NCBI RefSeq assembly: GCF_003721515.1
Contig: NZ_RJJD01000008.1
Location: forward strand, 62,001 to 126,000
DNA: 64,000 nucleotides
Reading direction: 5' to 3'
DNA from: Rufibacter latericius
GTDB taxonomy: Bacteria > Bacteroidota > Bacteroidia > Cytophagales > Hymenobacteraceae
Shown here: positions 5,265 to 35,604 of the stretch, piece by piece
How positions within the stretch are numbered: the first letter of the stretch is position 1
Layout of the letters: each line of letters begins with the position of its first letter
Notes under the pieces: model-generated
Told to the model about the DNA's origin: nothing
Seen by the model: only the letters and a program-made list of their open reading frames with translations
The model's database searches: none
Made by a program: the position numbers and the translations under genes

Positions 5265-5320
5265 GCAAAAAGCTGTTTCAGGGCTGTTTTTCTTAAAGGA
5301 GGCCTGAAACAGCTTTCTGC
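5265..5320. repeat. Intergenic palindrome, copy A
   Basis: Imperfect hairpin with arms containing AGCTGTTTCAGG and CCTGAAACAGCT. It sits 2 nt from the stop codon of the permease gene (minus strand), in a convergent gap, where it may serve as a terminator. Confidence 0.75.
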
Positions 5321-5322: not shown

Positions 5323-6537
5323 TTAATCGAACTTGATGGCTTTCACCGGGTGTATTCTGGCAATAAGCAAAGTTGGCAGCAGAATGGACAACATGGTTAA
5401 GAGGAAAGTGATGCCGTTGATGCCTACCCAAATGCGCCAGTCCCAATGAATAGGAACGGTGTCCATGTAGTAGTTCTCGGGGTCCAGCGGGATGAGTTTG
5501 AAATAGTCCTGCACCACGCAGAAAAACAAGGCCAGCAGGTTTCCACCGATGAGTCCGGCAATGGTGAGCCGAAGACCGCGGTGCAGGAAAATCCCTCGTA
5601 TTTGCCCGTTGGTGGCACCCATGGCTTTCAGCGCGCCAATCATATTGGTTCGTTCCAGAATCATGATGAAGAGCGTGGACACCATGTTGAAGGTGGCCAC
5701 AAAGACAATCAGCACCAGGAAAATAATGACGTTCCGTTTAAGAAGTTCAAGCCAATCGAAGAGCTGGGCGTAGGTGTCGGTGATTTTCTCCAGTTGCAGG
5801 TCATAATTCATCTTGTCAAAGACCTGGCTCGTGACGGTGTCTATCTGGGTGAAATCATTGAGCAGGATTTCGTAGCCACCCACCAGCGTATCGGGCCATT
5901 GGTTCAGATCGCGTATCTGCTGCAGATCACCTAGCACGTACACGTTATCGAACTCCTCCAAACCGGTCTTGAAAATGCCTTTCACCTCGAAGCGGCGCAT
6001 ACGCGGCGGGTTCTGGATAAAGTAGAACAGCACCTTCTCCCCTACCTTCAGGCGCAGTTTGTCGGCCATGAGCTGGCTCATCATGATCTGGTTGGAAGCG
6101 GCGGTGTCATTGAATTCCATCACCGAACCCGAGACCAGGTTGGCACGCATCCCCCGGAAATCATAGGTAGTGTCTACCCCTTTCAAGACCACGCCCAGCA
6201 CCTCGTCCTCGGTTTTGATGATGGCCGTTTTACGGGCGAAGGGCTGCAGGTGTGCCACCCCGGGAATGTTTTTGTAGTCCCCCAAGCCGGTGGAAGTGCC
6301 CATGGGGTAGCCTTCGAACGAATTGTTGGTGTCAAATTTGCTAATTTGCAGGTGTCCACCGAAACTGAAGATCTTGGCCTGTATTTCGTACCGGAAACCT
6401 TCCAGGATGGCAAAGGACACAATCATGATGGCAATGCCCAGCCCTACGCTGAACTTTGCTATTTTTGTGACCGAGGCGGTAAAAGAGTCTGAACGGGCAC
6501 CAGTCAACCGACTGGCAATGTATCGGGAAAGATTCAC
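5323..6537 (-). CDS. FtsX/LolC-E family ABC transporter permease
   Basis: Inner-membrane subunit of an ABC exporter of the LolCDE/MacB class. The 404 residues show one N-terminal membrane segment at about 28-48, a periplasmic MacB-PCD-like domain (roughly 50-260), then three C-terminal membrane helices (VIIFLVLIVFVATFNMVSTLF and two more). This is the FtsX layout. LolC/E proteins extract lipoproteins from the inner membrane for delivery to the outer membrane, a likely job here given the many lipoproteins around it. The ATPase partner is not in the window. It is divergent from namZ, with 49 nt between starts. Confidence 0.85.
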   Translation of the reverse strand: MNLSRYIASRLTGARSDSFTASVTKIAKFSVGLGIAIMIVSFAILEGFRYEIQAKIFSFGGHLQISKFDTNNSFEGYPMGTSTGLGDYKNIPGVAHLQPFARKTAIIKTEDEVLGVVLKGVDTTYDFRGMRANLVSGSVMEFNDTAASNQIMMSQLMADKLRLKVGEKVLFYFIQNPPRMRRFEVKGIFKTGLEEFDNVYVLGDLQQIRDLNQWPDTLVGGYEILLNDFTQIDTVTSQVFDKMNYDLQLEKITDTYAQLFDWLELLKRNVIIFLVLIVFVATFNMVSTLFIMILERTNMIGALKAMGATNGQIRGIFLHRGLRLTIAGLIGGNLLALFFCVVQDYFKLIPLDPENYYMDTVPIHWDWRIWVGINGITFLLTMLSILLPTLLIARIHPVKAIKFD

Positions 6538-7831: not shown

Positions 7832-8773
7832 ATGCGGAAAGAAGACCTCCGGATTATCTTTATGGGCACCCCTGACTTTGCGGTGCCCGCCCTCCAAGCC
7901 TTAGTGGAAAACAACTGGAACGTGGTGGCCGTCATCACCGCCCCAGATAAACCCGCCGGACGTGGCCTCAAACTGGTGCACTCGCCAGTAAAGGAAACTG
8001 CCTTGCAGCACAACCTTCCCGTGCTTCAGCCCACCAACCTCAAGGATCCCGCTTTTCAGGAAGAACTCAGAAGCTATAACGCCTCCTTGCAAGTGATTGT
8101 AGCCTTCAGGATGCTGCCCGAAGCCGTCTGGAACATGCCAGCCATGGGTTCCCTGAACATCCACGCCTCTTTGCTGCCGCATTATCGCGGAGCCGCCCCC
8201 ATTAACTGGGCGCTCATCCACGGTGACCAGGAAACCGGTGTCACTTCCTTTTTCCTGCAACACGAGATTGACACCGGCGATATCATCCTGCAAAAGAAAG
8301 TAGCCATTGAACCAGAAGACAACTTCGGGACGCTGTACGAAAAGCTGAAACACGCCGGTGCTGAACTTTTGTTAGAGACCGTGGATGCCATCGCTGAGGA
8401 ACGCGTACAGCCGTATCCGCAGCCGCAACCCGAGGAACCATTGCGCATGGCACCCAAGATCTTCAAGCAGACCTGTCAGATAAATTGGGAGCAATCCGCC
8501 CAACAGGTGCACAACTTCGTGCGTGGCCTTTCGCCGTACCCAGCGGCCTGGACTGTTCTGGAGGACAAACAATTCAAGGTGTTTTCGGGCCGAGTTCTGG
8601 AAAACGCCGCCGAAACAGAACCCGGCTCTTTCACCACTGATAACAAAACATACCTGCATCTGCAATGCGGCCACCAAACCGCTTATGCCATTGAAGAATT
8701 GCAGATGGAAGGTAAAAAGCGGATGAAGATCCAGGACTTTCTGCGGGGTTTCACTTTTCAACCAACTGTATGA
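7832..8773 (+). CDS. fmt: Methionyl-tRNA formyltransferase
   Basis: Formylates initiator Met-tRNA using 10-formyl-tetrahydrofolate. It has 313 residues, the normal length. The N-terminal formyltransferase domain begins IIFMGTPDFAVPAL. The catalytic triad matches E. coli Asn108/His110/Asp146 as Asn109, His111 (in NIHASLLPHYRGAAP) and Asp147 (EIDTGD). The usual Arg in LLPRYRG is His here. A C-terminal OB-type tRNA-binding domain follows. The stop overlaps the folA start by 4 nt (ATGA), implying translational coupling of two folate-linked enzymes. Confidence 0.96.
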   Translation: MRKEDLRIIFMGTPDFAVPALQALVENNWNVVAVITAPDKPAGRGLKLVHSPVKETALQHNLPVLQPTNLKDPAFQEELRSYNASLQVIVAFRMLPEAVWNMPAMGSLNIHASLLPHYRGAAPINWALIHGDQETGVTSFFLQHEIDTGDIILQKKVAIEPEDNFGTLYEKLKHAGAELLLETVDAIAEERVQPYPQPQPEEPLRMAPKIFKQTCQINWEQSAQQVHNFVRGLSPYPAAWTVLEDKQFKVFSGRVLENAAETEPGSFTTDNKTYLHLQCGHQTAYAIEELQMEGKKRMKIQDFLRGFTFQPTV

Positions 8774-9276
8774 TTGCCTTAGTAGTAGCCATCGCGGAGA
8801 ACCGCGTCATCGGGAAAAACAACCAACTCATCTGGCATTTGCCCAAAGACCTGCAGCATTTCAAAAAGTTGACCATGGGACACCCTATGGTGATGGGCCG
8901 AAAAACTTTCGAGGCCATCGGGAAACCTTTGCCGGGCCGCACCACCGTCATCGTCACCCGTCAACCTGATTATGCCGCTCCTGAGGGATGTCTGGTTACT
9001 TCTTCGCTGGAGGAAGCCTTGCAACAAGGCCTTGCTTTAGATGAGAACGTATTAGTAGTGGGCGGCGGCGAAATCTACCAACAAGCCCTGCCCTTGGCCG
9101 AAGTGGTGTATCTTACCCTGGTACATGAATCCTTTGAAGGCGATGTCTTTTTCCCCGAATTAGAGGCAGATGCTTGGGAAGTCACCGATCAGGAAGAACA
9201 CCTCCCCGACGAACGCCATGCCTATCCGTTTACCTTTTTCACTTTTAGAAGGAAAGCTGGTTTCAGCAAGAACTAA
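8770..9276 (+). CDS. folA: Dihydrofolate reductase
   Basis: Reduces dihydrofolate to tetrahydrofolate with NADPH. The 168 residues begin MIALVVAIAENRVIGKNNQL; active-site Trp22 and Asp27 align with the E. coli numbering. The NADPH-binding MGRKTFEAIGKPLPGR segment and VVGGGEIYQQAL glycine loop are present. It is coupled to fmt by an ATGA overlap and supplies the folate pool fmt draws on. thyA, a frequent neighbour in other genomes, is not in the window. Confidence 0.96.
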   Translation: MIALVVAIAENRVIGKNNQLIWHLPKDLQHFKKLTMGHPMVMGRKTFEAIGKPLPGRTTVIVTRQPDYAAPEGCLVTSSLEEALQQGLALDENVLVVGGGEIYQQALPLAEVVYLTLVHESFEGDVFFPELEADAWEVTDQEEHLPDERHAYPFTFFTFRRKAGFSKN

Positions 9277-9295: not shown

Positions 9296-9335
9296 TTGTT
9301 TTACAGCCTTTTTCGTGAAAACAGGTCTAAAACAA
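9296..9335. repeat. Intergenic palindrome, copy B
   Basis: Imperfect 40-nt palindrome, arms TTGTTTTA and TAAAACAA around a TTTTTC/GAAAA core, 19 nt after the folA stop. Confidence 0.75.
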
Positions 9336-9398: not shown

Positions 9399-9450
9399 CC
9401 TAATAAATAAAACGCCTGCTGTACAAACAGCAGGCGTTTTATTTATTAGG
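9399..9450. terminator. Bidirectional terminator, 24-bp perfect stem
   Basis: Arms 9399-9422 and 9427-9450 are exact reverse complements around a 4-nt loop (ACAA). The GC core GCCTGCTGT is flanked by AT-rich segments, so either strand gives a stem followed by a U-rich run. It separates the convergent folA and porU transcripts. Confidence 0.92.
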
Positions 9451-9499
9451 TGTTCTATCTTAAAGCCGATTAAGGGAAAATAGCCTCAAATCGCTCTCT

Positions 9500-12400
9500 C
9501 TATCTCAGGATGTAAATCTTTCCGTAGCCGTTCTTAAAGGCTTTGTCTCCGGCAGTGTAACGGTGTTTCGTTTCCTCGGCACTGTTTTCCATCACCACCC
9601 GGTAGAGGTACACGCCGTTAGCCAGTTTGTCCCCGAACTCATCGGTTCCGTCCCAGGCGAACTCAGACACGTTGTTGCCAATTTTGATCGGCCCTAGTTC
9701 CTCTTTCTGGATCTCCCTGATCACTTTACCCGTCATGGTCATGATCTGGAGCTTCATCTTATCAGGAACAGAGCTGCCCGTCAGGGTGAAAACGAACCTG
9801 GTTTTTGACGAGAATGGGTTAGGGTACGGATAGAAGCTGGTAATGGTGGAAGCATTTACTACCTCAAAGTTCACACTGTACCGCTCGCTTCCGGCCCGTT
9901 GACCTAAGGCGTCAAACCCTTGTACTTCCAGCGTGTACTTCCCGTCCGCCAGTTTTTCGGGGTGATACTCTACCCGGAAATCGTTTTTATCATCGGCCGG
10001 ATACCACTGGATCTTAGAATCAGTGCTAACATCAATTTCCTCGAACTGGCCCCCGTCCTTCTTCAGGTACACTTTCATGGAAGCTGGATCAGTGATCGGG
10101 ATTTTGCGGTAGTTGTCTTTCAGGACCATGCTGATCAAAGGGCTTGGAGAAACGATGTCACCATCCAGGATTCGTACCCCATCAAAAACCACATCCAGCA
10201 CCGGAGGCATCCCCGCGGAAAGGCTTACATTGAAAGGCACCTCCAACGTGTTATTGAAGTAGGATTGCTCCGGTAGAATCCGTGGGTTTACCGTTACGCG
10301 CAGTCTATTGGCTCCTTTCATGTTCAGGGTAGAGAATTTATGGTTAAAGAAAACCGTGTCTTCTTTTTGCAAAGCCTCCACCTTAAAGGTTTTTACCGTT
10401 TTTACGCCGTTCTCCTCAAACAGAGTGGTTTCTACCGTAAGTGAATCATCAAAATTCACTTGACTGATATTGTGGAAAGCGTACCGCAGATTTACTTCAC
10501 CGTTGGCCGCCTGCTCAGAGAGCTTTTCATACTTATCCAGCCCAACCAAATCAGGACGAATGAGCCCTTCCGGAACTCCCTCGTACAACACGGTCCACTC
10601 TTTCAGCTGAGGAGCCGTTCTCTGCGTTGCGTCTTTCAACGTCAGTTTCAATCTCAGGTATGGATACGTAGTAGCGCTTACTCCCGCTAAACTGAAGTTT
10701 GAGGAAGTTACATTAGAAGAAAGAACGGTTTCCTGCGAATTTTGGTCAACCCCTATCACATCTAGCTGGTAGCTGTCTGATGGCTCCAATTTCATCTGGT
10801 GATGCAGCGACTTCCATTCTTTGGCCGGCCCGATGATGGTGGAGGTTAAACCACCTTGAGATTCCTGAGAATTGATTTGTTTCTCTATCCTCACGGTCTG
10901 CATGTTCCGAGGAGTAAGATCAGTTGGAGTATAACTCATCTCAGTGGCAGTGCCGGGGGCACTTCCTTTCCGACCGACGATTGCAAAGGGATCACCCGTA
11001 ATTAGCTGATCAATCAAGGAGGAGCCAATTGTCTTAAAGGCTGCTTTGAGACTCGCACTCATGGTAGAATAAGGAACATTGCTCATCCCAACCATTGCTA
11101 CATGGTATCCTTCAGGGATAGTGTTTAGAAAGTTCTCGAGTTTGGTTAGATTGGCTGCTTGCCTCAAATCGTTGAAATGGTACACAAACTTTGGATCAGT
11201 TCCACAGATTGAAGCAAATCCTGAAGGAGCATCTAAAGGCTCTAGGGTTTTATCGTTCAATACTATGGCCATCATGTTTGGACGATTTGTATTACAATCT
11301 GCCTCAATGGTTTTAAAATTATCTAAGAAGATTCCGTACGGTGGATAATTGAAGGGTTGGCCTCCGCCCACGCCTTTTACCTCAAATACTCTGAAAGTTG
11401 GAGCAAATGCGAACGTTTTGCTTTGAACTTGTTCTACCAGGTTCTGCTTTTCAGCTTTTTGCACCTGGCCAAATCCTTTCTGAGACCAACCAGAAGGGCT
11501 ATCAGGGATGTACCTAAAAGAACTAGCGGTCCAAAGGGTATCTTCTTCATTGGTACTAGTCTCATAACGCACTCTCCAATAATAAACCGCACTATCTTTA
11601 GAAGTTGTATTTTCTGGAAGAGTAAATTCCCATAATGGCATTAATGCGGCTTGCACCACCTGAGATTTTTTCCATGCACTAGAGAAGGTATGAACGGTAT
11701 CAATTTCAAATTGGTATCCGCGCGGCCGAGTCAACAAATCCGTTGATTGGGCTATCAACTTCACGGTTCTGTCCTTTACAATGGAATACTCCTGGGGACC
11801 TAAAGCCAATACCCCGCTTTTTGAAAAGAAATATTCAATGGTAGAGACGTTATTTTCTTCGTTTAGCTCATCGATTAAATTGGAATGATCCAATGCAATG
11901 GTGAATGTATTTACACCTGCTCCGTCTAGGGTCTTAGATTCTAATTCTACCTGTACGGTATCCCGGTAGTAAATGGGGGCTACTTTGATTGTGTCATATA
12001 AATATTCCACCCCATTTTCTAATTTCCTGTTTATTGAAACATAGAAGGTATCTAGGTTTACTCTACCATAGTTCCGGATGTCTAGTTTTAGAATAAACTT
12101 TTCTGAACTTGCTGTTACTTTAGATCCATCAACTGAATGAAGGGTAGCACCTCCATTTGCAACAGCATAATCGGCTTTTTGAGGACCAATCAAGCGCAAA
12201 GCTGGATCTGCTTGTAATACCATTTGCATGTTCATCGCAACGGCATTTTCTCCACTTATCCGATCTGAGGTTAATTCAATGGCCCTCTGATGTTGATCAC
12301 CCAAAGGTTTGGAGAGGTAGGAAGAATCTCCATAAGCAGTGGTATAGAAGTTAGTAGAAAAGATATTCAATAGGGAGGGATAACCATAACTATCATGGGC

Positions 12401-14488
12401 CAAAAAGGAGATTGCACCTTTATTGGCTGTTAATAACCAGTCTTCTCCAAAAGTTCGGCCATTGGTAAAGGTATTTCCAGCGTTACACCCGTTCATTAAA
12501 ATCATTGGGTATTTGCCGTTGTTATTATATCCGTTTACCACATCCGATACCCTTCCAATATCTAGATCAGACACAGTAGAAGAGCTATGCCCAAAAAATG
12601 TAATTAAGGAAAGACCCGAATTCAGTTCCCTGGCAATGTTAAGTGTATCTAAACCACCTGAAGAGCTTCTGATTTTAGTTAATACATTAGCTCCTAACCA
12701 TACACCTTCCGCGATACGCTCAAAACCCCGCATATATGAAAGAAGGGTACGTTGCTCCTCTCCACTACTTCCTACCAAGTGAAGCATATTTTTTCTCCAA
12801 TCAAGATTGTAAGGAAGGCTTTCATGCGTTTTAACCTTAGAGAGATAATCCAAAACTTCTTGCGGAGTACTTGCGGGGAGACGTCCTGTTGCCACTTTAG
12901 GTACATAGTTTCCTGCTTCCCAATCAGAAGTATAGAACACGTCGGATCCTGGAGTTCCACCAGTGGGCACCAAATCTTGATACGCAAGAGAGGAAGGATT
13001 TTTCCTTACATTGATATTATCCGCCTCTAACCCTTTACCTAGTAAAAACAAATACTGGGGCTTACCATTCGCCAACATGTATTTCATGAACCGCCTAATG
13101 GCTGCAGATGATTTATCACCATAAAAAAACTGGTCATAAATACTATTGACATCAACCACCATGGTATCATAACCACCTCCCGCTATCGATGCTCTATAAG
13201 AAGCGTACTCTAAAACCGGATTAGAAGAAGATCCAATCGCTTGCATCAGCCTTTTATGGGTAACAATTATATATTCTGCAGCGTTATTAGCAAAAGTTTT
13301 AAATTTAACTTCTTGGACTGATGACGGAATCAAGGCCGGTCCTGACCAAAGAAATCCTTTTCTTGGAGTATTAGAAGTAGATGGAAAAACAAACCCTTTC
13401 TGTGTTCCATTCATCACGCCCTCTATCCTATGTACATTGGTAGGGGTGGTCACATCATAACCTATAGCATTCCCTGCCATTGTTCCTTCAAAAGTATAAT
13501 ACAAGGGGGTTGAAGTACCAGTAGTTGCAGATGCAAAGGATAGTGAAGATGTAGAAATTACAGTCCGCTGCGGATATGAAACCTTCACATAAGCAACTCT
13601 ATAGGCTCCAGTCCCACTTTTCGGAATAAACCTGATGACAAGAGAACCATTAGCTGGTATGTCTGAAAACTCCAACGTAAAGGTACGCTTAGCGGAAGAG
13701 TATAAAGCAGTTTGAACATTTCCCAATAATCTTGAGGTTGAACCATTCACAGCATACACCTCCACGTCTGGGACAGTAGCATTAGAGCCTGCAACTGACA
13801 CTTCAACATTAGGTTTAGAGCCTTGGCTATTTAAATTGACAATACCGTCAACAGTCACATTGCGGGTACCAGAAGAGGAAGTTGACATAAAACCCTCACC
13901 TTCATCTGACCAAGACATGTAATTCTCTCCATATCGTTTACCCCTAGAGTATTGATCAGTAAGTTGAACCAAGCGAGTTTGCCATAGCCAAGGCTCAGCT
14001 GTGAGTCCGGTTGGTGAAGTACTTTGAATTTGCATACGATTCTTCACACCAGCACCTGACCAAGTTAAAAAATAGGCAGCTGTATCTGTATAAAGACTGT
14101 AGAATGGATTAACCTGATGTTCGGGATTTTTATACAACTCCTTGTCCAGGGCCCCGTCATTCTGCTCCCCATAAAACTCAATGAAGTCATTGGCGTCAAA
14201 AGAACCGTCTGCCTCGCCCTCCACATGAATGGAGACTTCTTGGCCGCGGCGGTAGAGTTGGAAGTTACGCGGGTCTACCCCGTTGATGCCGGCGGCTTGC
14301 AGATAGGCTTTGTCTAAGCGGTAAATGCCGGTGGTGGGCACTTTTATTTTGTAGTACTTCTGGCTGTAGTTGATCCACTCATTTCCATAGACCACCTGCT
14401 GCGCTGAGGCATGTTGGGTGGAACCCAGCAGAACAAGAGAAAAGAAAGTGGCTAAAAGAAAATACTTAAAGGAGTAAGGTGTCTTCAT
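9500..14488 (-). CDS. porU: T9SS sortase PorU (C25 gingipain-like peptidase)
   Basis: Outer-membrane-associated cysteine protease of the type IX secretion system. It cuts the C-terminal sorting domain from secreted cargo and helps attach it to the surface. The start at 14488 places a clean signal peptide first (MKTPYSFKYFLLATFF... cut near HASA), 19 nt after the porV stop; an upstream in-frame ATG at 14536 would overlap porV. The 1662 residues contain the C25 catalytic pair His634 (FFGHSSS) and Cys668 (NGCNAG). A C-terminal FlgD-like Ig segment has the PYPNPFS and FAWDGTDEFGDKLANGVYLYR motifs. The middle of the gene is markedly more AT-rich than its ends. Confidence 0.93.
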   Translation of the reverse strand: MKTPYSFKYFLLATFFSLVLLGSTQHASAQQVVYGNEWINYSQKYYKIKVPTTGIYRLDKAYLQAAGINGVDPRNFQLYRRGQEVSIHVEGEADGSFDANDFIEFYGEQNDGALDKELYKNPEHQVNPFYSLYTDTAAYFLTWSGAGVKNRMQIQSTSPTGLTAEPWLWQTRLVQLTDQYSRGKRYGENYMSWSDEGEGFMSTSSSGTRNVTVDGIVNLNSQGSKPNVEVSVAGSNATVPDVEVYAVNGSTSRLLGNVQTALYSSAKRTFTLEFSDIPANGSLVIRFIPKSGTGAYRVAYVKVSYPQRTVISTSSLSFASATTGTSTPLYYTFEGTMAGNAIGYDVTTPTNVHRIEGVMNGTQKGFVFPSTSNTPRKGFLWSGPALIPSSVQEVKFKTFANNAAEYIIVTHKRLMQAIGSSSNPVLEYASYRASIAGGGYDTMVVDVNSIYDQFFYGDKSSAAIRRFMKYMLANGKPQYLFLLGKGLEADNINVRKNPSSLAYQDLVPTGGTPGSDVFYTSDWEAGNYVPKVATGRLPASTPQEVLDYLSKVKTHESLPYNLDWRKNMLHLVGSSGEEQRTLLSYMRGFERIAEGVWLGANVLTKIRSSSGGLDTLNIARELNSGLSLITFFGHSSSTVSDLDIGRVSDVVNGYNNNGKYPMILMNGCNAGNTFTNGRTFGEDWLLTANKGAISFLAHDSYGYPSLLNIFSTNFYTTAYGDSSYLSKPLGDQHQRAIELTSDRISGENAVAMNMQMVLQADPALRLIGPQKADYAVANGGATLHSVDGSKVTASSEKFILKLDIRNYGRVNLDTFYVSINRKLENGVEYLYDTIKVAPIYYRDTVQVELESKTLDGAGVNTFTIALDHSNLIDELNEENNVSTIEYFFSKSGVLALGPQEYSIVKDRTVKLIAQSTDLLTRPRGYQFEIDTVHTFSSAWKKSQVVQAALMPLWEFTLPENTTSKDSAVYYWRVRYETSTNEEDTLWTASSFRYIPDSPSGWSQKGFGQVQKAEKQNLVEQVQSKTFAFAPTFRVFEVKGVGGGQPFNYPPYGIFLDNFKTIEADCNTNRPNMMAIVLNDKTLEPLDAPSGFASICGTDPKFVYHFNDLRQAANLTKLENFLNTIPEGYHVAMVGMSNVPYSTMSASLKAAFKTIGSSLIDQLITGDPFAIVGRKGSAPGTATEMSYTPTDLTPRNMQTVRIEKQINSQESQGGLTSTIIGPAKEWKSLHHQMKLEPSDSYQLDVIGVDQNSQETVLSSNVTSSNFSLAGVSATTYPYLRLKLTLKDATQRTAPQLKEWTVLYEGVPEGLIRPDLVGLDKYEKLSEQAANGEVNLRYAFHNISQVNFDDSLTVETTLFEENGVKTVKTFKVEALQKEDTVFFNHKFSTLNMKGANRLRVTVNPRILPEQSYFNNTLEVPFNVSLSAGMPPVLDVVFDGVRILDGDIVSPSPLISMVLKDNYRKIPITDPASMKVYLKKDGGQFEEIDVSTDSKIQWYPADDKNDFRVEYHPEKLADGKYTLEVQGFDALGQRAGSERYSVNFEVVNASTITSFYPYPNPFSSKTRFVFTLTGSSVPDKMKLQIMTMTGKVIREIQKEELGPIKIGNNVSEFAWDGTDEFGDKLANGVYLYRVVMENSAEETKHRYTAGDKAFKNGYGKIYILR

Positions 14489-16214: not shown

Positions 16215-18695
16215 ATGAAAAAGAATATAAGTGTCAACTTGCAAGGCATGATCTTCCACGTGGAGGAAGACGGCTACGAGATGTTGAGCCAGTACCTTGC
16301 CGCCATAAAGACGTACTTCTCCACGTATGAGGGGCACGAGGAGATTGTGGCAGACATTGAGTCACGCATCGCGGAGATCTTCTTCGCCCGCCTGAACCCT
16401 GGCAAGCAGGTCATCACCCGCGAAGACGTGCAGGGGCTCATCGCTCAGATGGGAACCATCGCCGATTTTGAAACCGTGGAAGCCGAAGAGGCCGAAGCTG
16501 CCTCCGCCAGAGCACACGGCAACACCACCCCGCCTACGTTTGAGGCTGCCCCTAAAGAGCATAAACGCCTTTACCGCGACATAAACCGCAAAATGCTAGC
16601 CGGAGTGGCCGCAGGAATCGCCAATTACCTGCAAATGGATCCGCTTTGGGTAAGACTGGCCTTTGTGGTGCTGGTGTTAGGTGTGCCGTTTACCGGTGGC
16701 TTTACCTTATTTGGGGTTATACTTTATGCCATATGCTGGGCGGCTTTGCCTAAAAACGCCGCTTTGCCAGATGTACCCGTACGCAAACTGTTCCGTGACC
16801 CGGTAGACAAGAAACTGGGTGGAGTTGCCAGCGGTATGGCCATCTACTTCGGCACAGATGTAGCCATCATCCGGTTACTGTTCCTAGTGCTGTTCCTGGT
16901 TGGTGGTTTCGGGCTTATCCCTTATATCATCCTTTGGATTGCTGTTCCTGAGGCCAAAACCATAACAGAGCGGGTGCAAATGCAGGGAAACCCCGTCACG
17001 CTCTCCAGTATAGAAGAATCGGTTAAAAACAACTTGAACATGCAGGACGCTAACGGGCAGGAGAGCACCTTAGCCAAAGTCCTTTTGTTCCCGGTACGTT
17101 TGGTGTCTCAGGTCATCCAGGCTTTGTCCAGAATATTGAACCCGATCCTGGGCTTTCTGATAACGTTGGTGCGGGTATTTGCCGGCCTCTTGATGATGGT
17201 GGTTTCCGGAGCCTTTATGGTGGCCCTGCTTACCGCTCTTATGACCGGATTAGGCATCTTTGATCAGCCTGACTATGTCAACTTTGGCGAGATTCCGGTA
17301 ACGGCTTTCTTAAATGCGGTGCCTTCCTGGTTAATCTGGGCTGCATTCTTCGCAGGTATCATTCCAGCCTTGCTCCTGTTCTTGCTGGGTGTGGGCTTGC
17401 TGGCGAGACGCTTCCTGTTGCGCCCCACCGTGGGTTGGTCCATGCTGGGCGTATGGCTTCTGGCCGTGGCTGCCTTGCTTAGCGGTATCGCGTTAACGGC
17501 GCGTCATTTCCAGGAATCTGGTGAATACGCCACCGAACAGACGTTCCCGGCCGCTGCCTATCCTACCATGGTTTTCAACATCAGAGACACGAACCACAGC
17601 TACGGACACCGCATGAACGTACGGCTGGAAGGATACAACGGCACCGACATTAAAGTGGTGCAGACCTACAAATCACACGGCCTGAATGAGGAAGACGCTA
17701 TCAAGAACGCCCAGATGATTGCCTACAAAATGGTGCAGCAAGACTCGGTGATTCGGTTCGATGATGCGTTCACCTTCAAGCCAAACGCCATCTTCCGGGA
17801 TCAGAACCTGGAGTTGACCGTGATGATTCCCGAGGGCAAGAAGCTTCGGTTCTCTGAAGGATACGCTGACCACTTCTCGGATGAGATCACCAACGGCGAA
17901 TACTACTCTGGTGACCTGGCGGGCAACACCTGGGAGATGAGAAACGGACGCCTCAGATGCCTTACCTGCAGCGTGGTAGACACCACCGCCGGAACATCAA
18001 CCAGACGCCCTGCCGGTGGATTAGACGATGACTTAACCATTCTGAAAGACGAATACGCGGGCATCTCAAAGATCTACAACGTGCGGGATTTCAGCGAGAT
18101 TGAGGCCGGTGGCGCCTACCACATCAGAGTACGGATGTCTCCCCGCCACTCTGTTCGGGTAACCGGATCAGAAAGTGAACTGGAGAAGCTGCAGTTGCGC
18201 GTGCAGAACGGCGTATTGAAGATCAACCGTGAAAGTGAGTTCCTCCGCCTTTGGGATACAAACAAAAACGCTGTTCTCATTGAGGTGGAAACCCCAGACC
18301 TGAATTCAGTTGACTTCGGCGGAGCCGCCAAAGCCGAGATCATCGGGTTTGCCCCAGATAACTTCTCCATCAAGCAAACGGGAGCCAGCGAATTGGCTAT
18401 CAATATCAGCACCAGCCATCTGGACATTGACCTGAGCGGAGCTGCAAGAACCAACCTGAAAGGTTTTGTTGACGAACTCTCCATTGATGCAAGCGGCGCC
18501 AGCAGAATTGAGGCTTCGCAGTTAGTGGCCCAGGGCGCTTCTGTAGACGTAAGCGGCGCAAGCCAAAGCGTGGTAAATGTGCAGAAACACCTGAGAGCCG
18601 ATGCCAGTGGCGCCAGCTCAGTCCAATATCTGGGCGAGGTGCAACAAGTAGAAATGAACCAGTCTGGCGGCTCTCGCATTAGCCGCCGCAGATAA
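16215..18695 (+). CDS. PspC/DUF2807 membrane protein
   Basis: Large inner-membrane protein of 826 residues. In order: a cytoplasmic N-terminal domain (1-80) resembling sensor-associated helical domains; two PspC domains at about 112-170 and 185-250, each with a membrane helix pair; further membrane helices around 305-340, 372-400 and 412-432; then a C-terminal head-GIN/DUF2807 beta-helix domain (about 620-820) with repeated SGAA/SGAS turns. PspC domains respond to membrane stress in the phage-shock system. DUF2807 domains are normally exported, so the C-terminus is probably periplasmic. It is co-transcribed with padR. The function is not established. Confidence 0.85.
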   Translation: MKKNISVNLQGMIFHVEEDGYEMLSQYLAAIKTYFSTYEGHEEIVADIESRIAEIFFARLNPGKQVITREDVQGLIAQMGTIADFETVEAEEAEAASARAHGNTTPPTFEAAPKEHKRLYRDINRKMLAGVAAGIANYLQMDPLWVRLAFVVLVLGVPFTGGFTLFGVILYAICWAALPKNAALPDVPVRKLFRDPVDKKLGGVASGMAIYFGTDVAIIRLLFLVLFLVGGFGLIPYIILWIAVPEAKTITERVQMQGNPVTLSSIEESVKNNLNMQDANGQESTLAKVLLFPVRLVSQVIQALSRILNPILGFLITLVRVFAGLLMMVVSGAFMVALLTALMTGLGIFDQPDYVNFGEIPVTAFLNAVPSWLIWAAFFAGIIPALLLFLLGVGLLARRFLLRPTVGWSMLGVWLLAVAALLSGIALTARHFQESGEYATEQTFPAAAYPTMVFNIRDTNHSYGHRMNVRLEGYNGTDIKVVQTYKSHGLNEEDAIKNAQMIAYKMVQQDSVIRFDDAFTFKPNAIFRDQNLELTVMIPEGKKLRFSEGYADHFSDEITNGEYYSGDLAGNTWEMRNGRLRCLTCSVVDTTAGTSTRRPAGGLDDDLTILKDEYAGISKIYNVRDFSEIEAGGAYHIRVRMSPRHSVRVTGSESELEKLQLRVQNGVLKINRESEFLRLWDTNKNAVLIEVETPDLNSVDFGGAAKAEIIGFAPDNFSIKQTGASELAINISTSHLDIDLSGAARTNLKGFVDELSIDASGASRIEASQLVAQGASVDVSGASQSVVNVQKHLRADASGASSVQYLGEVQQVEMNQSGGSRISRRR

Positions 18696-18698
18696 GTG

Positions 18699-18736
18699 CT
18701 GTTTAGGGCCGGTTTTGCTAAAACAGGCCTAAACAG
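18699..18736. repeat. Intergenic palindrome, copy C
   Basis: 38-nt palindrome, arms CTGTTTAGGGCC and GGCCTAAACAG, 3 nt after the stop of the PspC-type gene. One of the best-conserved copies. Confidence 0.85.
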
Positions 18737-18784
18737 ATAGACACCAAAAGCTCTCTTTCTGGATTTCTTGAGAAGCTTTTGTAT

Positions 18785-18823
18785 AAGGAGGACGCGCTAC
18801 TGGCAAAGTCCTCCTTTCTTTCC
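18785..18823 (+). terminator. Probable terminator of padR-pspC
   Basis: Stem AAGGAGGAC (18785-18793) with GTCCTCCTT (18808-18816) and a following pyrimidine-rich CTTTCCCC run. Confidence 0.6.
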
Positions 18824-18943: not shown

Positions 18944-19735
18944 ATGCAAAAGCAGATCTTTCCCATGGCCGCTTTGGTGGTGGCTATGTTTTTGGCCTCT
19001 TTTTCCCAAACTGCGGCCCAAACGAAGAAACCCAATTTTACCCAAACCCTCCTCCCCGCCGACAGCCTTTTCTGGGTTACCTATAATCACTGCGACACCG
19101 AGCGAATGAAACAGTTTGTCACCGATGACCTGGAGTTTTACCATGACAAAGGCGGCATCACCCTGGGTAAAACTGATTTCATTTCCAGCGTCCAGAAGAA
19201 CCTGTGCGGTAATGAGAATTTCAGGGTGAGAAGAGAACCGATGCGGAAAACCATAAAAGTGTACCCCTTGCACAAAGGAGATAGCCTGTACGGCGCCATC
19301 ATCTCGGGTGACCACCTGTTTTACAACCAGACCAAGGGGCAGAAAGAGATCCTCGCCGGACAGGCAAAATTTTCCAACCTGTGGCTTCTGAAAGACGGCA
19401 CCTGGAAAATGGCCCGTGTTCTAAGCTATGACCACGGCCCCGTGCCCTACCGTAATGCCCGAAAAGCCATTCAGGTGCCAAGTAATACCCTGAGTCACTT
19501 CACCGGGGAATACGACGGTCCCAAAGCCGGGAAACTCACCATTAAAAAGGAAAACAATGCCTTGGTGTTGTTGACCAAAGGCCAGAAGATGGCCCTCCTC
19601 CCTGAGAGCAGCAACCGGTTCTTCGCCCAGGATCGCGACCTCACCTTTGAGTTCATCCGGGGCAAAGAAACACCTAAAATGGTGGTTCGGGAGAACGGCG
19701 AAGTGGTGGAGGAAGCAGTGTTGCTTAGAAAATAG
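18944..19735 (+). CDS. Exported NTF2-like (DUF4440-type) protein
   Basis: 263 residues with a signal peptide (MQKQIFPMAALVVAMFLASF, cut near AAAQ). An NTF2/SnoaL-like cone domain covers about residues 35-160 (DSLFWVTYNHCDTERMKQFVTDDLEFYHDKGG). A C-terminal beta-rich segment (about 185-263, FTGEYDGPKAGKLTIKKENNAL) resembles the small domain at the end of class C beta-lactamase-like proteins. Such fusions are periplasmic and of unknown function. No catalytic residues can be named. Confidence 0.7.
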   Translation: MQKQIFPMAALVVAMFLASFSQTAAQTKKPNFTQTLLPADSLFWVTYNHCDTERMKQFVTDDLEFYHDKGGITLGKTDFISSVQKNLCGNENFRVRREPMRKTIKVYPLHKGDSLYGAIISGDHLFYNQTKGQKEILAGQAKFSNLWLLKDGTWKMARVLSYDHGPVPYRNARKAIQVPSNTLSHFTGEYDGPKAGKLTIKKENNALVLLTKGQKMALLPESSNRFFAQDRDLTFEFIRGKETPKMVVRENGEVVEEAVLLRK

Positions 19736-19822: not shown

Positions 19823-20713
19823 ATGAAACTTTTCCTACGCCTACTACCCATCCTATTTCTTCTCTTCCTGTCTTCCCGAAGCATGGCTCAACCCGCGGCT
19901 TCTGAGTGCGACAGCAGATTGCTGTCCTACAAAGACTGGAAGGAAACCTGTTCTACCCAGTGGACCTTGTCTTTGGGAACGCCGGAGAGCGGAAATTTAC
20001 AGTACATCGGGGCGTCTCATTCCACCGATCCTGTCCATGAACAGTTTGCCCAAATAGAAATGACCTGGGACATCCAACAACCCACCCTGGTCTTTTTTGA
20101 AGGCCCAAACCGAGGCACTTCCCCTTCAGAGGATGAGACCATCCGGGAAATGGGAGAATCTGGGTTTGTGCGGTTCCTGGCCCAAGCCGATGGGATCAAA
20201 ACCCAATCCCTGGAGATGTCGCCCCAAGACGAAGTAGACCAACTCCTGAAAACGGGCCGTTTTAGCAAAGAGCAGGTAAAACTGTTTTTCCTTCTGCGGG
20301 AAGCCAGCCGCCTACGGGACCGCAAGAACTTAAATGAAGAACAGCTCAAAGCTGCGATAGGACAATTATTGCCTAAGGCAAATTCCATGATCAAAGGCTT
20401 TGACCAGGTGATTCCAGATGTGGCTTCTCTGCAGGTGGCCTACCAAAAATACTGGACCTCGCCCGCCAATTGGTGGGAGGCCCCGGCCAACTGGTTCACC
20501 CCTACCGGAGATGGCCAGGAAACAGGAGGCAAATTCACCCATGAAATCAACCGGCTTAACAGCGAGAACCGAGATCTACACATGTACCGCCTGCTCTCAG
20601 AGGCAGTTCTCAGGGGAGAACGAGTACTGGCGGTGGTGGGCCGCAACCACGTTCCTATGCAAGCCGAGGCGTTAAAGTGTGCTCTGAGCAAAAAGAACCA
20701 AGCGATAAAATAA
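19823..20713 (+). CDS. Exported protein, possibly TraB/Tiki-like
   Basis: 296 residues with a signal peptide (MKLFLRLLPILFLLFLSSRSMA). The body contains IGASHSTDP near residue 60, LVFFEGPNRG, and a C-terminal VVGRNHVPMQ. The paired G-x-x-H-like motifs with an intervening acidic strand (FFEG) recall the TraB/GumN/Tiki fold, where such Gly-His and Glu residues are conserved. Overall similarity is weak, so this is a tentative structural guess. It follows the NTF2-like gene by 87 nt and may share its promoter. Confidence 0.45.
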   Translation: MKLFLRLLPILFLLFLSSRSMAQPAASECDSRLLSYKDWKETCSTQWTLSLGTPESGNLQYIGASHSTDPVHEQFAQIEMTWDIQQPTLVFFEGPNRGTSPSEDETIREMGESGFVRFLAQADGIKTQSLEMSPQDEVDQLLKTGRFSKEQVKLFFLLREASRLRDRKNLNEEQLKAAIGQLLPKANSMIKGFDQVIPDVASLQVAYQKYWTSPANWWEAPANWFTPTGDGQETGGKFTHEINRLNSENRDLHMYRLLSEAVLRGERVLAVVGRNHVPMQAEALKCALSKKNQAIK

Positions 20714-20718: not shown

Positions 20719-20762
20719 ATCCGTTTAGAGCCTGTTTTAAGGAAAGCAGGCTCTAAACGGAT
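20719..20762. repeat. Intergenic palindrome, copy D
   Basis: Arms ATCCGTTTAGAGCCTG and CAGGCTCTAAACGGAT are exact reverse complements (16 bp), 5 nt after the preceding stop codon. It probably also terminates transcription. Confidence 0.88.
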
Positions 20763-22579: not shown

Positions 22580-22724
22580 TGAATTGATTCTTTTTTATAC
22601 GAGGCACATGCGCCTTCGCCAATCGGCTGCGTATGAGGCTGCAAAGGTAGACGAAGCCGGTGCCTTTGGCAAATGAAGCGCCTCACTGCCCTACTACAGC
22701 AAAGCGGAAAGTCGTGGAAACGTG

Positions 22725-22759
22725 GTTTAGGGTTAATTTTGGGAAAGCGGGGTTAAAAC
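22725..22759. repeat. Intergenic palindrome, copy E (degenerate)
   Basis: Weak copy (GTTTAGGGTTAATTTTGGG then AAAGCGGGGTTAAAAC) on the left of the composite inverted repeat. Confidence 0.5.
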
Positions 22760-22789
22760 GAAAGGGACCTTTTTGCTTGCACGGCAGTA

Positions 22790-23044
22790 GGCGCAGACGC
22801 TCGCAGGTCTTTCGGACGTTACGAGGTCTTTTGAGTATGCGACATTGCCTACTCAACGGCCTGTCTTTTCCATATACTTCTTTTACACTTGGTATCTTTC
22901 AGGATAGTGCTAGGGAAAAAGACACAAGGAATGGCAATTCATGAAAATGAATATCTACTAACAAAATATCAGGAGCTCTAAAAACCACCTTCCCGCCAAC
23001 TCAAAAGACCTCGTAGCGTCCGGGGGACCTGCGAGCGTCTGCGC
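22790..23044. repeat. 47-nt inverted repeat pair enclosing 161 nt
   Basis: Arm 22790-22836 and arm 22998-23044 are reverse complements at 43 of 47 positions, starting GGCGCAGACGCTCGCAGGTC and ending CGAGGTCTTTTGAGT. A palindromic element lies outside each arm (copies E and F), making a near-symmetric structure. No transposase is present. The enclosed DNA has no gene beyond a 16-codon frame (ATG 22931 to TAA 22981) that could be the stub of a lost gene. The gap between cca and mce (22580-23098) holds nothing else that I can identify. Confidence 0.85.
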
Positions 23045-23050
23045 CCGTTC

Positions 23051-23086
23051 CGTTTCCAGCCCGTTTCACCAAAAACAGCCTTAAAA
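23051..23086. repeat. Intergenic palindrome, copy F
   Basis: GTTTCCAGCCCGTTTC then AAAAACAGCCTTAAAAC, 12 nt downstream of the mce stop and 6 nt outside the right arm of the large inverted repeat. Confidence 0.65.
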
Positions 23087-23098
23087 CAATCAAAACCA

Positions 23099-23500
23099 CT
23101 ATTCTTTAATCTCCTGGCACAATTCCACCAGGACCCCGTTGGCTGATTTTGGGTGTACAAAGCAGACTAGTTTGTTATCGGCGCCACGTTTGGGGGCCTC
23201 GTTCAGGAGTTGGAAACCTTGGGCTTTGAGGCGCTCCATCTCGGCTACAATGTCTTCCACTTCAAAGGCGATGTGGTGGATTCCCTCCCCTTTCTTCTCA
23301 ATAAACTTGGCAATGGCACTGTGCTCGGCGGTGGCTTCCAGAAGCTCGATTTTGGTGTTTCCTACGTGAAAAAAGGAGGTGTTTACGGCTTCGCTTTCCA
23401 CTTTTTCGGCCTTATAGGGCTCTGCACCTAACAATTTGGCAAATAACTGATTTGCGTCTTGGCAATTTTTCACGGCAATGCCAATATGTTCTACATGCAT
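23099..23500 (-). CDS. mce: Methylmalonyl-CoA epimerase
   Basis: Interconverts (R)- and (S)-methylmalonyl-CoA in propionate metabolism. At 133 residues it has the vicinal-oxygen-chelate (glyoxalase) fold: His5 in VEHIGIAV, a central IELLEA strand, GIHHIAFEVEDI, and C-terminal GVLVELCQ whose Glu is a metal ligand. It is divergent from iscS with about 120 nt between starts. The methylmalonyl-CoA mutase is not in the window. Confidence 0.93.
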   Translation of the reverse strand: MHVEHIGIAVKNCQDANQLFAKLLGAEPYKAEKVESEAVNTSFFHVGNTKIELLEATAEHSAIAKFIEKKGEGIHHIAFEVEDIVAEMERLKAQGFQLLNEAPKRGADNKLVCFVHPKSANGVLVELCQEIKE

Positions 23501-25813: not shown

Positions 25814-26140
25814 ATGATTACCGTTTCTGATAAAGCAAAAGAAAAAGTAGAAAAGCTGAAGCACGATTCTAACATAGATGACAGCTTCCGTTTAAGAGCT
25901 TCTGTAGCCGGTGGCGGATGCTCCGGCTTGTCCTACAAGTTGGACTTCGATGACGAGGTAAAGCCCATGGACCAGGAGTTTGAAGACAAAGGCGTGAAGG
26001 TAGTGGTAGACATGAAAAGCTTCCTCTACCTGGCCGGCACCGAGTTGGACTTCTCTGACGGACTGAACGGCAAAGGCTTCTTCTTCAACAACCCCAACGC
26101 CAGCCGTACCTGCGGCTGCGGCGACAGTTTCTCTGTGTAA
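25814..26140 (+). CDS. iscA: A-type Fe-S carrier IscA
   Basis: Carries Fe-S clusters from the scaffold to target apoproteins. The 108 residues have the three A-type cysteines: Cys36 (GGGCSGLSY), Cys100 and Cys102 (TCGCGDSF). It is the last gene of the cluster, followed 20 nt later by a strong terminator. Confidence 0.95.
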   Translation: MITVSDKAKEKVEKLKHDSNIDDSFRLRASVAGGGCSGLSYKLDFDDEVKPMDQEFEDKGVKVVVDMKSFLYLAGTELDFSDGLNGKGFFFNNPNASRTCGCGDSFSV

Positions 26141-26160: not shown

Positions 26161-26196
26161 AAGCAAAAAGGCACCGCATGCGGTGCCTTTTTGCTT
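26161..26196. terminator. Terminator of the isc cluster
   Basis: A perfect 36-nt palindrome with core GGCACCGCATGCGGTGCC flanked by A-run and T-run (AAGCAAAAA / TTTTTGCTT), directly after iscA. Confidence 0.93.
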
Positions 26197-26228
26197 TTGG
26201 CCTGTTTTCAGAAAATTACCCCTAAAAG
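26194..26228. repeat. Intergenic palindrome, copy G
   Basis: CTTTTGGCCTGTTTTC then GAAAATTACCCCTAAAAG, abutting the isc terminator. Confidence 0.6.
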
Positions 26229-26503
26229 ACTGCTGTAAACTTGGCTCTGCTTTCCGTCGCTCACTTCTTGGTTGCGCTTTTGTTGGGCGTAGTCTCTGAC
26301 TACGCCACTATTAGACATCCAATCTATTGATTGGTGAAACTCTGCAGCCAAATACAAAGGTCCTTTTCCAACACGTTTTTCTGAAAACATCTTCAAAACA
26401 TTTGCTCTTCGCATTAACGCCAATCAAGAGATTGGGTCTCCGGTAGTGCATAGACCGCTGCCACTACTTCAACACACAGCAAGTTAGTTGGATCAGCAAA
26501 AGA
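26229..26503. other. Non-coding gap with a REP-like hairpin
   Basis: No convincing gene. It contains GGCGTAGTC-TCT-GACTACGCC at 26286-26306, a perfect 9-bp hairpin resembling dispersed GC-rich extragenic palindromes. The minus-strand open frame through it (26208-26423, 71 codons) has no recognisable family or spacing to neighbours and reads like a repeat passing through. Confidence 0.5.
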
Positions 26504-28351: not shown

Positions 28352-28641
28352 TTTGAATAATGTTGAAAATTATCTCACTTCTCCAGAACAAGTACACCAA
28401 GTATTTCTTAATAGCTCTTGCAACTTTTTCTATTTTTCAATTCGGAAAACGGATGGGTGAGTTCTTGTATTATGTGACGCATTAATCAGAAAATCTTTCG
28501 TTGCAGTACCATCTCTTGATTTGAAAAAAGATTACCGGTTCCTGCTTGTTTTTTCAAAAACAGACTAATAACAGAAACGCTACATCTCCTCCCCTTCCCC
28601 AAAACCTGTTATCTTTACTATCTCGCATAGATTCCAATCCC

Positions 28642-31600: not shown

Positions 31601-32310
31601 AGAAGGAACGTCACCTAACTGAATTAACGCTGGAAGAACTTCATCCGCTTATCCAGGCGCTGGAGGAAGAGAAAAACCAACAACTAGCGCAGATTGCGCG
31701 CCTGGAGATGCAATTACAGCAAGACACCGATCTGCGGGAGCGGCACCGTCAGCTCACCCAGCAATTGGACTTGCAAAAAGGCGAAGCCGACCGTTGGGAC
31801 AGCCTTTCCCGGCTCATCGGCTCCGCCGATGGCAAGAAGTTCAGCAAATATGCGCAAAGTCTCACCCTGGCCCGGCTGGTAGAACTGGGCAACCGCCACC
31901 TGCACCGCCTCAATGACCGCTACCGTATCCTGAAGAGCAGCGAGAACGAACTGGATCTACAGATTCTGGACACGTACCAGGGCGATGCCGTCCGGTCGGT
32001 GAATTCCCTTTCCGGGGGTGAGAGTTTCCTGGTGAGCCTGGCATTAGCCCTCGGGTTATCAGACCTGGCGAGCCACAAGGCCCAGATACATTCTCTCTTT
32101 ATTGATGAAGGCTTCGGGACCCTGGATGCCGAAACGCTGGATGTGGCCATGGATGCTTTGGAAAGTCTGCAGGCCAGCGGCAAGGTGATCGGGATTATCT
32201 CGCACGTAGAAGCCCTGAAGGAGCGCATCAGCACGCAAATTGTAGTGGAGAAGCAAGCTGGTGGCCGCAGCCAGATCAGGATAATGAGCGGGAATGTGTT
32301 TGCAGTGTAG
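28642..32310 (+). CDS. sbcC: SbcC-type SMC-like exonuclease ATPase
   Basis: Large subunit of the SbcCD nuclease, which opens hairpins and protein-blocked DNA ends. I choose GTG at 28642 because the product then begins MKITSVRFLNLNSLQGEH, as in family members; the open frame reaches back to 28546 only through non-homologous sequence. The 1222 residues hold Walker A GPTGAGKT (37-44), long Gln-rich coiled coils, the zinc hook CPLC (597-600), signature LSGGES (1123-1128) and Walker B IDEG (from 1154). The partner sbcD, usually adjacent upstream, is not in the window. Confidence 0.92.
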   Translation: MKITSVRFLNLNSLQGEHLIRFNEPPLSESGLFAITGPTGAGKTTILDAITVALYGQVPRHGRDVSEIMTRHTGECWSEVEFEAQGKTYRARWNLRRSRGKADGKLQSPVMELMDAATQEVLESRLSETRQRIMDLCGLDFQQFLRSVMLSQGDFTRFLKASESERSELLEKLTDTRIYSQISMAAYEKAKAEKQRLQDLERLLQVDQLLPEEQRLALAQKVSELKAAVRLAHQQVQQHHQQQTWLTHLQKLIQKEAQLHTQVAQAQIEQLAGQSNREKLQRHEQAQPFQSELARLSEVNRQGQMVDQTVVRLQEQIPAQEQLVSTQTKSAETARAAYAQAQQTLTEAEPRLDRVMQQDTHLAAQQAQYTRDEEAAAGLQVQVNQLTATLQQQQATFKQIQEQGLSFKTWLQEHAQDEELTHMLHEGKSEFRNLEEVQKQQTKLRKEQADFRLVLENEGKNTASWQSRLATTESHLKEQRALLSQLQNQATSALQGQQHETLEHLCRSLPQVCSQLEKQLDVSRNYLQLEARRQNLQTQLTQTSQHLHQLRRDFAQTQANRAQAFDKQKDLQHIVDLQRQIQKYEEARTQLQPEQPCPLCGSTHHPFVEEHQPQTLSEAEQNLQYQQAQLQQLDIQEREQAAAVHKLEIEEQHTQEQVQELATQAQNLHTQFTQLNSLLAVAHEITATDLIDESWKTRKTELEQAAATLEKLRTLRTQTEAAHQAEQRLLTEQQRFRHEIEKTTEKHASARAQMERLEEELQDLAEQEKVFSQTLASFFSTYGLSFSGSNGPALLAQLDERRQVYEQKKAQLPELREKFIQAKTEAENSQKSLEEKQTEVKLRQEHLQKAQAHLRELRAQRNHLLPENLQPQAEKQRLQQTLQQAAQALQSAEVGLQREQEQLNLLRHQLTERQKEQQTNRQLQSELKNSLLQKIQPLGYASLAELQAQLLSQEEAQRLRQEQERLQKTLTELEHSLEQTKQEYQSEKERHLTELTLEELHPLIQALEEEKNQQLAQIARLEMQLQQDTDLRERHRQLTQQLDLQKGEADRWDSLSRLIGSADGKKFSKYAQSLTLARLVELGNRHLHRLNDRYRILKSSENELDLQILDTYQGDAVRSVNSLSGGESFLVSLALALGLSDLASHKAQIHSLFIDEGFGTLDAETLDVAMDALESLQASGKVIGIISHVEALKERISTQIVVEKQAGGRSQIRIMSGNVFAV

Positions 32311-32437: not shown

Positions 32438-32446
32438 GCTGCTCTC

Positions 32447-35572: not shown

Positions 35573-35604
35573 GCCTTCCTTCACCTACTTTCAGCACCTA
35601 GATG

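Follow-up and report, generated by a model that had tools for sequence, protein, structure and literature searches.

The stretch analysed here (hereafter the window) comprises 64,000 nucleotides (nt) of the Rufibacter latericius genome (assembly GCF_003721515.1, contig NZ_RJJD01000008.1, positions 62,001 to 126,000), and our subject is a palindrome lying directly behind the stop codon of a pspC-like gene, together with the repeat family of which it is one copy in this genome of 5.67 Mb and 23 contigs, whose relatives by name are Rufibacter and Sabulibacter. The locus consists of the following features:

16215-18695, + strand: pspC-like gene, 826 aa, with a TAA stop at 18693-18695
18699-18736, no strand assigned: focal palindrome, 38 nt, 3 nt behind the pspC stop, with an ortholog in 16/16 sampled genus genomes
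18745-18781, + strand: second hairpin of the pspC 3' untranslated region, visible by eye in the sequences of relatives
18785-18821, + strand: terminator-like hairpin with a T-run and an unusually conserved loop

The open reading frame (ORF) 16215-18695 encodes a PspC domain, PspC transmembrane and toast-rack regions and the GIN domain DUF2807. An earlier reading of the letters alone (the sequence-only reading) had noticed a palindrome right after its stop, and it is indeed found there, reading CTGTTTAGGGCCGG...CCTAAACAG. Folded as RNA, the 130 nt after the stop form three hairpins (−46.1 kcal/mol, z −3.48), in the order palindrome, second hairpin and terminator-like hairpin followed by TTTCTTT; the focal copy itself has no T-run, and the separate terminator-like hairpin comes after it. 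All 16 sampled genomes of the genus carry the copy a few nt behind the pspC stop. Arm pairing of this copy across the genus was 0.766 versus 0.673 in shuffled controls, with 0 of 2,000 shuffles as high, and several arm columns carry two or three distinct pair types, which constitutes covariation. The alignment of focal copies (A3) puts some right arms out of register, so only its sequences were used and pairs were counted by half-site fit instead. Rfam returned no matches in the window, the two hits near the focal site being at chance level and far below the gathering score. As a separate observation, the loop of the 18785-18821 hairpin is almost invariant in the genus, with GACGCGCTNCTGGCAAAGTC exact and single-copy in 12/16 genus genomes and in 0/22 others; terminator loops are usually not conserved, and this one could be an RNA-protein or small-RNA site.

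Genome-wide, the palindrome belongs to an abundant family. A profile seeded from window copies and retrained on 464 kb, with a copy defined as a match of at least 8 bits, recovered 34 copies within the window, 467 in the first 864 kb of the genome (training stretch included; 4 after reversal of the sequence) and 424 in another 799 kb outside training (the replicate; 2 reversed), for a total of 891 copies in 1.663 Mb versus 6 reversed, which scales to ~3,000 per genome. In the consensus, two half-sites of 19 nt, each close to CYGTTTTRGGSCTGTTTTC (Y = C/T, R = A/G, S = C/G), face each other in inverted orientation with 2 nt between them, forming a 40-nt dyad with four T/A boxes: GTTTT-N6-GTTTT, 4 nt, AAAAC-N6-AAAAC. 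Overall the sequence is very degenerate and the G+C parts of the dyad vary among copies, but conservation of the box columns (half-site columns 5, 6, 16 and 17) is 95-98% across the three classes of intergenic gap (convergent, tandem and divergent) and 88-96% in genic copies. Taxonomically, a structure model found the repeat in 16/16 sampled genus genomes and in 0/22 others, and among 148 genomes drawn from the order, a draw that may have held no other genus member, R. latericius alone matched; in these model searches up to 150 or 44 candidates were scored per genome, and the counts are to be read as 'at least'. In 360 kb from six genomes of other genera there were 2 matches versus 3 reversed. 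A search of open-licence papers returned no description of such repeats in Rufibacter.

Gene ends were taken from our own simple codon-statistics caller, and start codons are therefore less certain (approximate) than stops. In the first 864 kb, copy density was 4.61 per kb in convergent gaps, 2.85 in tandem gaps, 1.34 in divergent gaps and 0.12 in genes, and in the replicate it was 3.40, 2.76, 1.54 and 0.12, respectively. The family fills much of the intergenic space: in the first 864 kb, a copy sits in 78/96 convergent, 195/325 tandem and 47/103 divergent gaps no shorter than 45 nt. Within tandem gaps, copies crowd against the upstream stop. Under random placement within the same gaps (1,000 draws for the 864 kb, 2,000 for the replicate), a mean of 17.7 copies (maximum 33) would fall <10 nt from that stop, versus 52/227 observed, and the replicate gave 36/203 versus 16.1 (maximum 29), so that both stretches together place 88/430 tandem copies <10 nt behind a stop where the nulls expect ~34; 9/227 and 6/203, respectively, lie that close to the downstream start. 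Convergent gaps, evaluated in the first 864 kb, behave alike, with 43/93 copies <10 nt from a stop where random placement gives 22.1 on average and at most 38. The sequence-only reading had held that the repeat is not placed at random and had named a uniform distribution across the genome as an outcome that would speak against it; placement proved non-uniform twice, on 1.66 of 5.67 Mb. Its estimate that about half the copies lie within 30 nt of a stop was right about a near-stop cluster and slightly high for the share, which is 14/34 in the window (41%, including two copies that contain the stop, 46747-46786 and 51640-51679), because our profile also picks up weaker copies than the 13 it had named. 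The stop distances that it listed, which carry letters without coordinates and were compared as a set, are of the same size, and its copy R fits 51640-51679. Regular spacing, as for domain boundaries, was rejected across the 1.66 Mb sampled: copies are more clustered than under a class- and length-matched null (coefficient of variation (CV) 0.95 versus 0.83, with 297/300 nulls at or below the observed value). Copy-bearing gaps in this sample are up to 22.8 kb apart, and the copy-free runs may be marks of horizontally acquired islands.

Evolutionarily, copies keep their positions in related species while their letters change, which suggests that they are preserved for a task at gene ends. We compared the orthologous 64-65 kb from five congeners, so that the following results concern one 64-kb region, in addition to the pspC site in 16 genomes. 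Fourfold-degenerate sites are 50-57% identical between the window and these congeners and thus nearly saturated, and simulated neutral decay left 3.5% of the 34 copies detectable at an identity of 0.6 and 0% at 0.5. Nonetheless, copies ≤60 nt from a stop were kept at the orthologous stop in 13/16, 12/15, 11/15, 10/15 and 9/12 cases in the five congeners, with stop-to-copy distances correlated between orthologs (rho 0.76-0.94). Restricting the comparison to gaps with adjacent flanking orthologs, and counting gap-by-relative pairs, which are not independent gaps, a copy present here was retained in 59/66 comparisons (convergent 28/30, tandem 24/26, divergent 7/10), whereas among copy-free gaps of this genome, all of them tandem or divergent, the relative held one in 1/40 comparisons; this positional conservation largely rules out random mobile insertion as a full explanation in R. 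latericius. Over 55 ortholog comparisons, half-site columns 5, 6, 16 and 17 were 91-100% identical, column 18 was 84%, columns 3 and 4 were 71-76% and the remaining columns 38-66%. Among the ortholog pair columns, 66 had changed on both sides yet still paired, 445 were paired and unchanged, 331 were paired in one genome only and 203 in neither. Three genic copies (8579-8618, 29987-30026 and 40388-40427) are also position-conserved (in 4/5, 4/5 and 3/3 relatives, respectively), without arm covariation; genic copies, at 0.12 per kb, are also denser than the matches in other genera (2 in 360 kb), and coding constraint could account for part of this.

Structurally, the arms pair beyond what the consensus imposes, and they do so downstream of genes. 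Excess complementarity was expressed as a z-score from re-dealing right arms among copies, given here successively for the first 864 kb, the replicate, the five relatives and G001 (a genome of the same genus). It was 6.7, 3.1, 9.3 and 2.7 in convergent gaps, 7.5, 6.5, 0.6 and 3.5 for tandem copies <40 nt from the stop, and 4.7, 3.6, 0.9 and 2.2 for tandem copies ≥40 nt away; no excess was found in divergent gaps (0.7, −1.3, 0.0 and 0.1) or in genes (0.1, −1.3, −0.4 and −1.6). At least 15 of the 19 pairs are formed in 26% of 147 near-stop copies versus 6% of 87 tandem copies ≥60 nt away, and in 79 well-paired copies the pairing extends 4 nt past the 40-nt core with locus-specific letters (z 7.8, 5.9, 5.2 and 4.0).

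Functionally, the sequence-only reading had suggested a role at mRNA 3' ends, by termination or by protection from exonucleases. As a general role, termination is rejected by our data. Among gene ends followed by 100 nt or more, where our terminator scan has a false rate inside genes of 8/228, an independent terminator-like hairpin was equally common with a copy within 60 nt (71/203) and without one (77/211, p 0.76), and a T-run follows on the sense side in just 35/256 tandem copies within 60 nt of a stop. Where a copy and an independent terminator occur together, the terminator lies behind the copy in 46 cases and before it in 25. Termination is nonetheless a minority role of the copies: 29/203 near-stop copies themselves pass the scan, and T-runs are asymmetric, with 14/256 on the other side of the same tandem copies, 28/105 versus 8/105 for well-paired near-stop copies and 11/172 versus 8/172 for tandem copies farther from the stop. 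Of the sequence-only reading, the non-random placement is borne out, and both positions and arm complementarity are conserved downstream of genes; the divergent-gap and genic copies, which keep their boxes and show no extra pairing, fall outside it.

With these patterns in hand, we posit, at even confidence, that the repeat is an old, genus-wide family resembling the repetitive extragenic palindromes (REPs) of other bacteria that has been kept in the form of 3'-end hairpins, probably with a protein partner. The spread of the family would predate the genus or fall in its early history, and most comparable copies in R. latericius are fixed in place. Downstream of genes, compensatory changes and locus-specific stem extensions keep the arms complementary, so that a copy can form an mRNA hairpin immediately behind the stop or near the transcript end. 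From this we infer an RNA-level function, most likely that of a 3'-end structure serving as a barrier to 3' exonucleases or as a pause or stall element, while a minority of copies would double as intrinsic terminators. Since the boxes are conserved as well, a further constraint is expected, probably a protein recognising DNA or the duplex, and we read the whole as a two-layered constraint, acting on the boxes everywhere and on the hairpin downstream of genes.

Several results weigh against this reading. Tandem copies ≥40 nt from the stop are over-paired too, and no pairing excess is seen in the 24 near-stop tandem copies from the five relatives. Selected RNA pairing should favour G.T over A.C mispairs (sense strand, near-stop copies); tried as an RNA test, this ratio was 193:137 (p 0.002) in the 864 kb and was not replicated, with 155:143 in the replicate, 37:46 in the five relatives and 64:60 in G001, for a weak sum of 449:386. 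The left and right halves are symmetric with respect to the direction of transcription (1/19 columns at p < 0.05 over 256 copies), as would befit a DNA site, and divergent-gap copies are also retained. Some copies sit behind a terminator and may therefore be outside the mRNA, and box conservation among orthologs is somewhat inflated since detection needs the boxes. Finally, quasi-palindrome mutational correction is a mechanism that can restore arm complementarity without selection, and it could have done so here.

Traces of mobility come from G001. In that genome, 52 copies differ by at most 5 positions from a 42-nt palindromic consensus and lie in unrelated flanks (loci partly chosen for high scores), and counts of an arm 18-mer reach 148 in the forward and 142 in the reverse direction against 0 in the control (the two arms of one element can both count); the family thus was or is mobile in G001. 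At loci such as L126-L145, a near-identical palindrome of 42-44 nt, usually TT/AA-flanked, stands beside older, diverged copies. Within 420 kb of G001, 1/85 copies within 8 differences lies in a called gene. An age gradient toward stops was considered and dropped, as 2/11, 16/65, 26/100 and 4/26 copies, from youngest to oldest, lie <10 nt from a stop, with no clear trend when the four classes are compared with one another. Insertion into pre-existing palindromes was likewise rejected, because the flanks are complementary at the first two positions only, which are probably the element's own. Regarding a mobilising enzyme, matches to PF01797, mostly weak, occur in 15/16 genus genomes in open frames of ~180-200 aa, as in REP-associated tyrosine transposases (RAYTs); one genome (G006) has the repeats and no PF01797 match. 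A search of R. latericius for PF01797 alone found no intact RAYT: the single match aligns to the RAYT-like protein of a congener across a TAG, i.e. the gene is interrupted. Linkage to RAYT-like genes was rejected as well. Of the 45 PF01797 matches in the genus, 32 were examined (of the rest, 3 strong IS200-like matches were excluded and 10 not used), and a repeat lay within 1 kb of 30/32, versus 248/278, 77/87 and 68/71 size-matched controls, a comparison of limited power because the repeat is everywhere.

Three other explanations account for parts of this picture. Possible, though doubtful in our judgement, is that the repeat is a double-stranded DNA site, the four T/A boxes being read one helical turn apart by a dimer-of-dimers protein, for example to hold supercoils or to organise the nucleoid where transcription units end, with the hairpin secondary. 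The boxes are, in fact, equally well kept in all gap classes and nearly so in genes, despite the lack of covariation in divergent and genic copies; the absence of asymmetry relative to transcription and the 7/10 retention of divergent copies point the same way, and the density order convergent > tandem > divergent also matches expected positive supercoiling. What such a site leaves unexplained are the arm complementarity confined to the downstream side of genes and the sense-side T-runs; in addition, copies are clustered instead of regularly spaced, and no protein turned up, no systematic search having been made. Alternatively, the near-identical copies of G001 in different flanks, of which so few lie in genes, suggest a REP-like family or one resembling miniature inverted-repeat transposable elements (MITEs), whose position bias would be what purifying selection leaves of random insertion. 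As an account of the whole, this is unlikely: positions in R. latericius are frozen across species, unlike the neutral remnants in the simulation, and stop proximity in G001 has no clear age trend. For R. latericius, mobility as the complete explanation is largely refuted, whereas as the origin of the repeat it is likely.

Least probable, and by our estimate very improbable, is a family of intrinsic transcription terminators. Besides the copies that pass the terminator scan and the sense-side excess of T-runs, the long, A/T-flanked stems of some copies would suit it, but terminators independent of the repeat are equally frequent with or without a copy, and the focal copy lacks a T-run, a separate terminator-like hairpin coming after it.

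Returning to the 3'-end hairpins, a broader picture, which we offer tentatively and with less confidence than the hairpin reading itself, is that the repeat acts as a genus-specific punctuation of gene ends: ~3,000 largely fixed dyads, whose four phased boxes would be read by a putative DNA- or duplex-binding protein and which would double as RNA hairpins downstream of genes, having arisen by domestication of a mobile palindrome whose recent spread is seen in at least one sister lineage (G001). More generally, these data bear on whether the position of REP-like palindromes behind stops is selected or incidental. With positions that outlast nearly saturated fourfold sites, compensatory changes downstream only and boxes everywhere, the family offers a clean comparative handle for predicting whether a given copy acts as RNA or as DNA.

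The other copies in the window, none assigned a strand, are as follows, with (−) marking genes on the reverse strand:

1163-1201: copy, 0 nt behind the stop of 1202-2284 (−)
2441-2480: copy in a divergent gap
5273-5312: copy, 9 nt behind the stop of 5323-6537 (−); 15/19 paired
8579-8618: copy within gene 7832-8773, at the same relative position in 4/5 relatives
9296-9335: copy, 19 nt behind the stop of 8770-9276
9455-9494: weak copy, 6 nt behind the stop of 9500-14488 (−)
18986-19025: weak copy within ORF 18944-19735
20721-20760: near-perfect copy, 17/19 paired, 5-7 nt behind the stop of 19883-20713
22722-22761: copy in a tandem gap, 336 nt from the stop
23050-23089: copy, 10 nt behind the stop of 23099-23500 (−)
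26191-26230: copy directly after an intrinsic terminator, 51 nt from the stop of 25814-26140
26362-26401: copy in a convergent gap, 162 nt from a stop
28535-28574: weak copy in a divergent gap
29987-30026: weak copy within gene 28642-32310, at the same relative position in 4/5 relatives
32399-32438: copy, 7 nt behind the stop of 32447-33217 (−)
34268-34307: very weak genic match (8.6 bits), not seen in 4 relatives with the ortholog
34950-34989: copy, 0 nt behind the stop of 33584-34948
35603-35642: copy, 15/19 paired, 26 nt behind the stop of 35670-38117 (−)
38272-38314: copy directly after an intrinsic terminator, 61 nt from the stop of 38364-39758 (−)
39833-39872: copy in a divergent gap
40388-40427: copy within gene 40013-42160, at the same relative position in 3/3 relatives with the ortholog
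42280-42318: weak copy in a convergent gap, 63 nt from the stop
45803-45842: copy, 10 nt behind the stop of 44578-45792
46025-46064: near-perfect copy, 17/19 paired, 33 nt from the stop of 46098-46685 (−)
46747-46786: copy overlapping the stop of 46778-47365 (−)
48415-48454: copy, 108 nt from the stop of 47574-48305
49407-49445: copy, 90 nt from the stop of 48570-49316
51640-51679: copy containing the stop of 49658-51661
52153-52192: copy in a divergent gap
52965-53004: weak copy, 134 nt from the stop of 52235-52840
58088-58127: copy in a divergent gap
59951-59990: copy, 4 nt behind the stop of 59996-60568 (−)
61931-61970: copy, 15/19 paired, 33 nt from the stop of 60673-61896

Other inverted repeats occur among them. 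One, at 22790-23045 between two palindrome copies, has 52-nt arms that are 88% complementary and 152 nt apart and looks like a separate mobile or structured element, and two perfect ones, at 56433-56493 (30-bp arms, 1 nt between) and 9399-9450 (24-bp arms, 4 nt between), are possibly bidirectional terminators.

Among known systems, REPs, which bind gyrase, are the closest parallel. REPs of enterobacteria and pseudomonads are described as high-copy palindromes of 20-40 nt, some within 15 nt of a stop, a position at which ribosome stalling and reduced translation are reported for Escherichia coli (PMC12306157); another account finds them chiefly downstream of coding regions, in the gaps of tandem and convergent ORFs, and takes G.T pairing in their stems as support for transcription of the repeat (PMC3733652). 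Roles proposed in these two sources include supercoiling, termination, mRNA stability and translation (PMC12306157; PMC3733652). The Rufibacter repeat is REP-like in being a short, high-copy and mostly intergenic palindrome (2.8 copies per kb in tandem gaps against ~0.12 in genes) found mainly in convergent and tandem gaps, downstream of coding regions. It differs in its degeneracy and its four T/A boxes, may differ in its positions conserved across species at nearly saturated fourfold sites, and carries no REP end tag: of 455 copies, 14 have GTAG, 19 CTAC, 8 CGTC and 10 GACG (chance ~28 each), and the 52 young G001 copies, with 3, 0, 0 and 1, respectively, are likewise unlike the tagged REP super-families. 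Of the transposases, TnpA-Y1 subclass 2.6, rich in Bacteroidetes, is reported to be flanked by untagged atypical structures (PMC6006769), and RAYT genes and REPIN populations (a REPIN being two inverted REPs that form one mobile unit) are described as lasting for millions of years (PMC8049555). The PF01797 genes in 15/16 genus genomes and the untagged many-copy palindromes resemble such systems, but the repeats are not enriched around RAYT-like genes, G006 has no PF01797 match and the R. latericius gene is interrupted. Whether or not it corresponds to a REPIN, the 40-nt dyad could be regarded as a pair of 19-nt half-sites in inverted orientation. With intrinsic terminators the repeat shares a hairpin at gene ends, though most near-stop copies have no T-run, and with MITEs it shares the fixed 42-44 nt palindrome that spread in G001, though the copies compared in R. 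latericius are static. Lacking the GTAG/CGTC tag and linkage to RAYT genes, the repeat is thus filed as a REP variant and not as a member of the GTAG or CGTC families, and by analogy we read it as probably working the way REP elements do.

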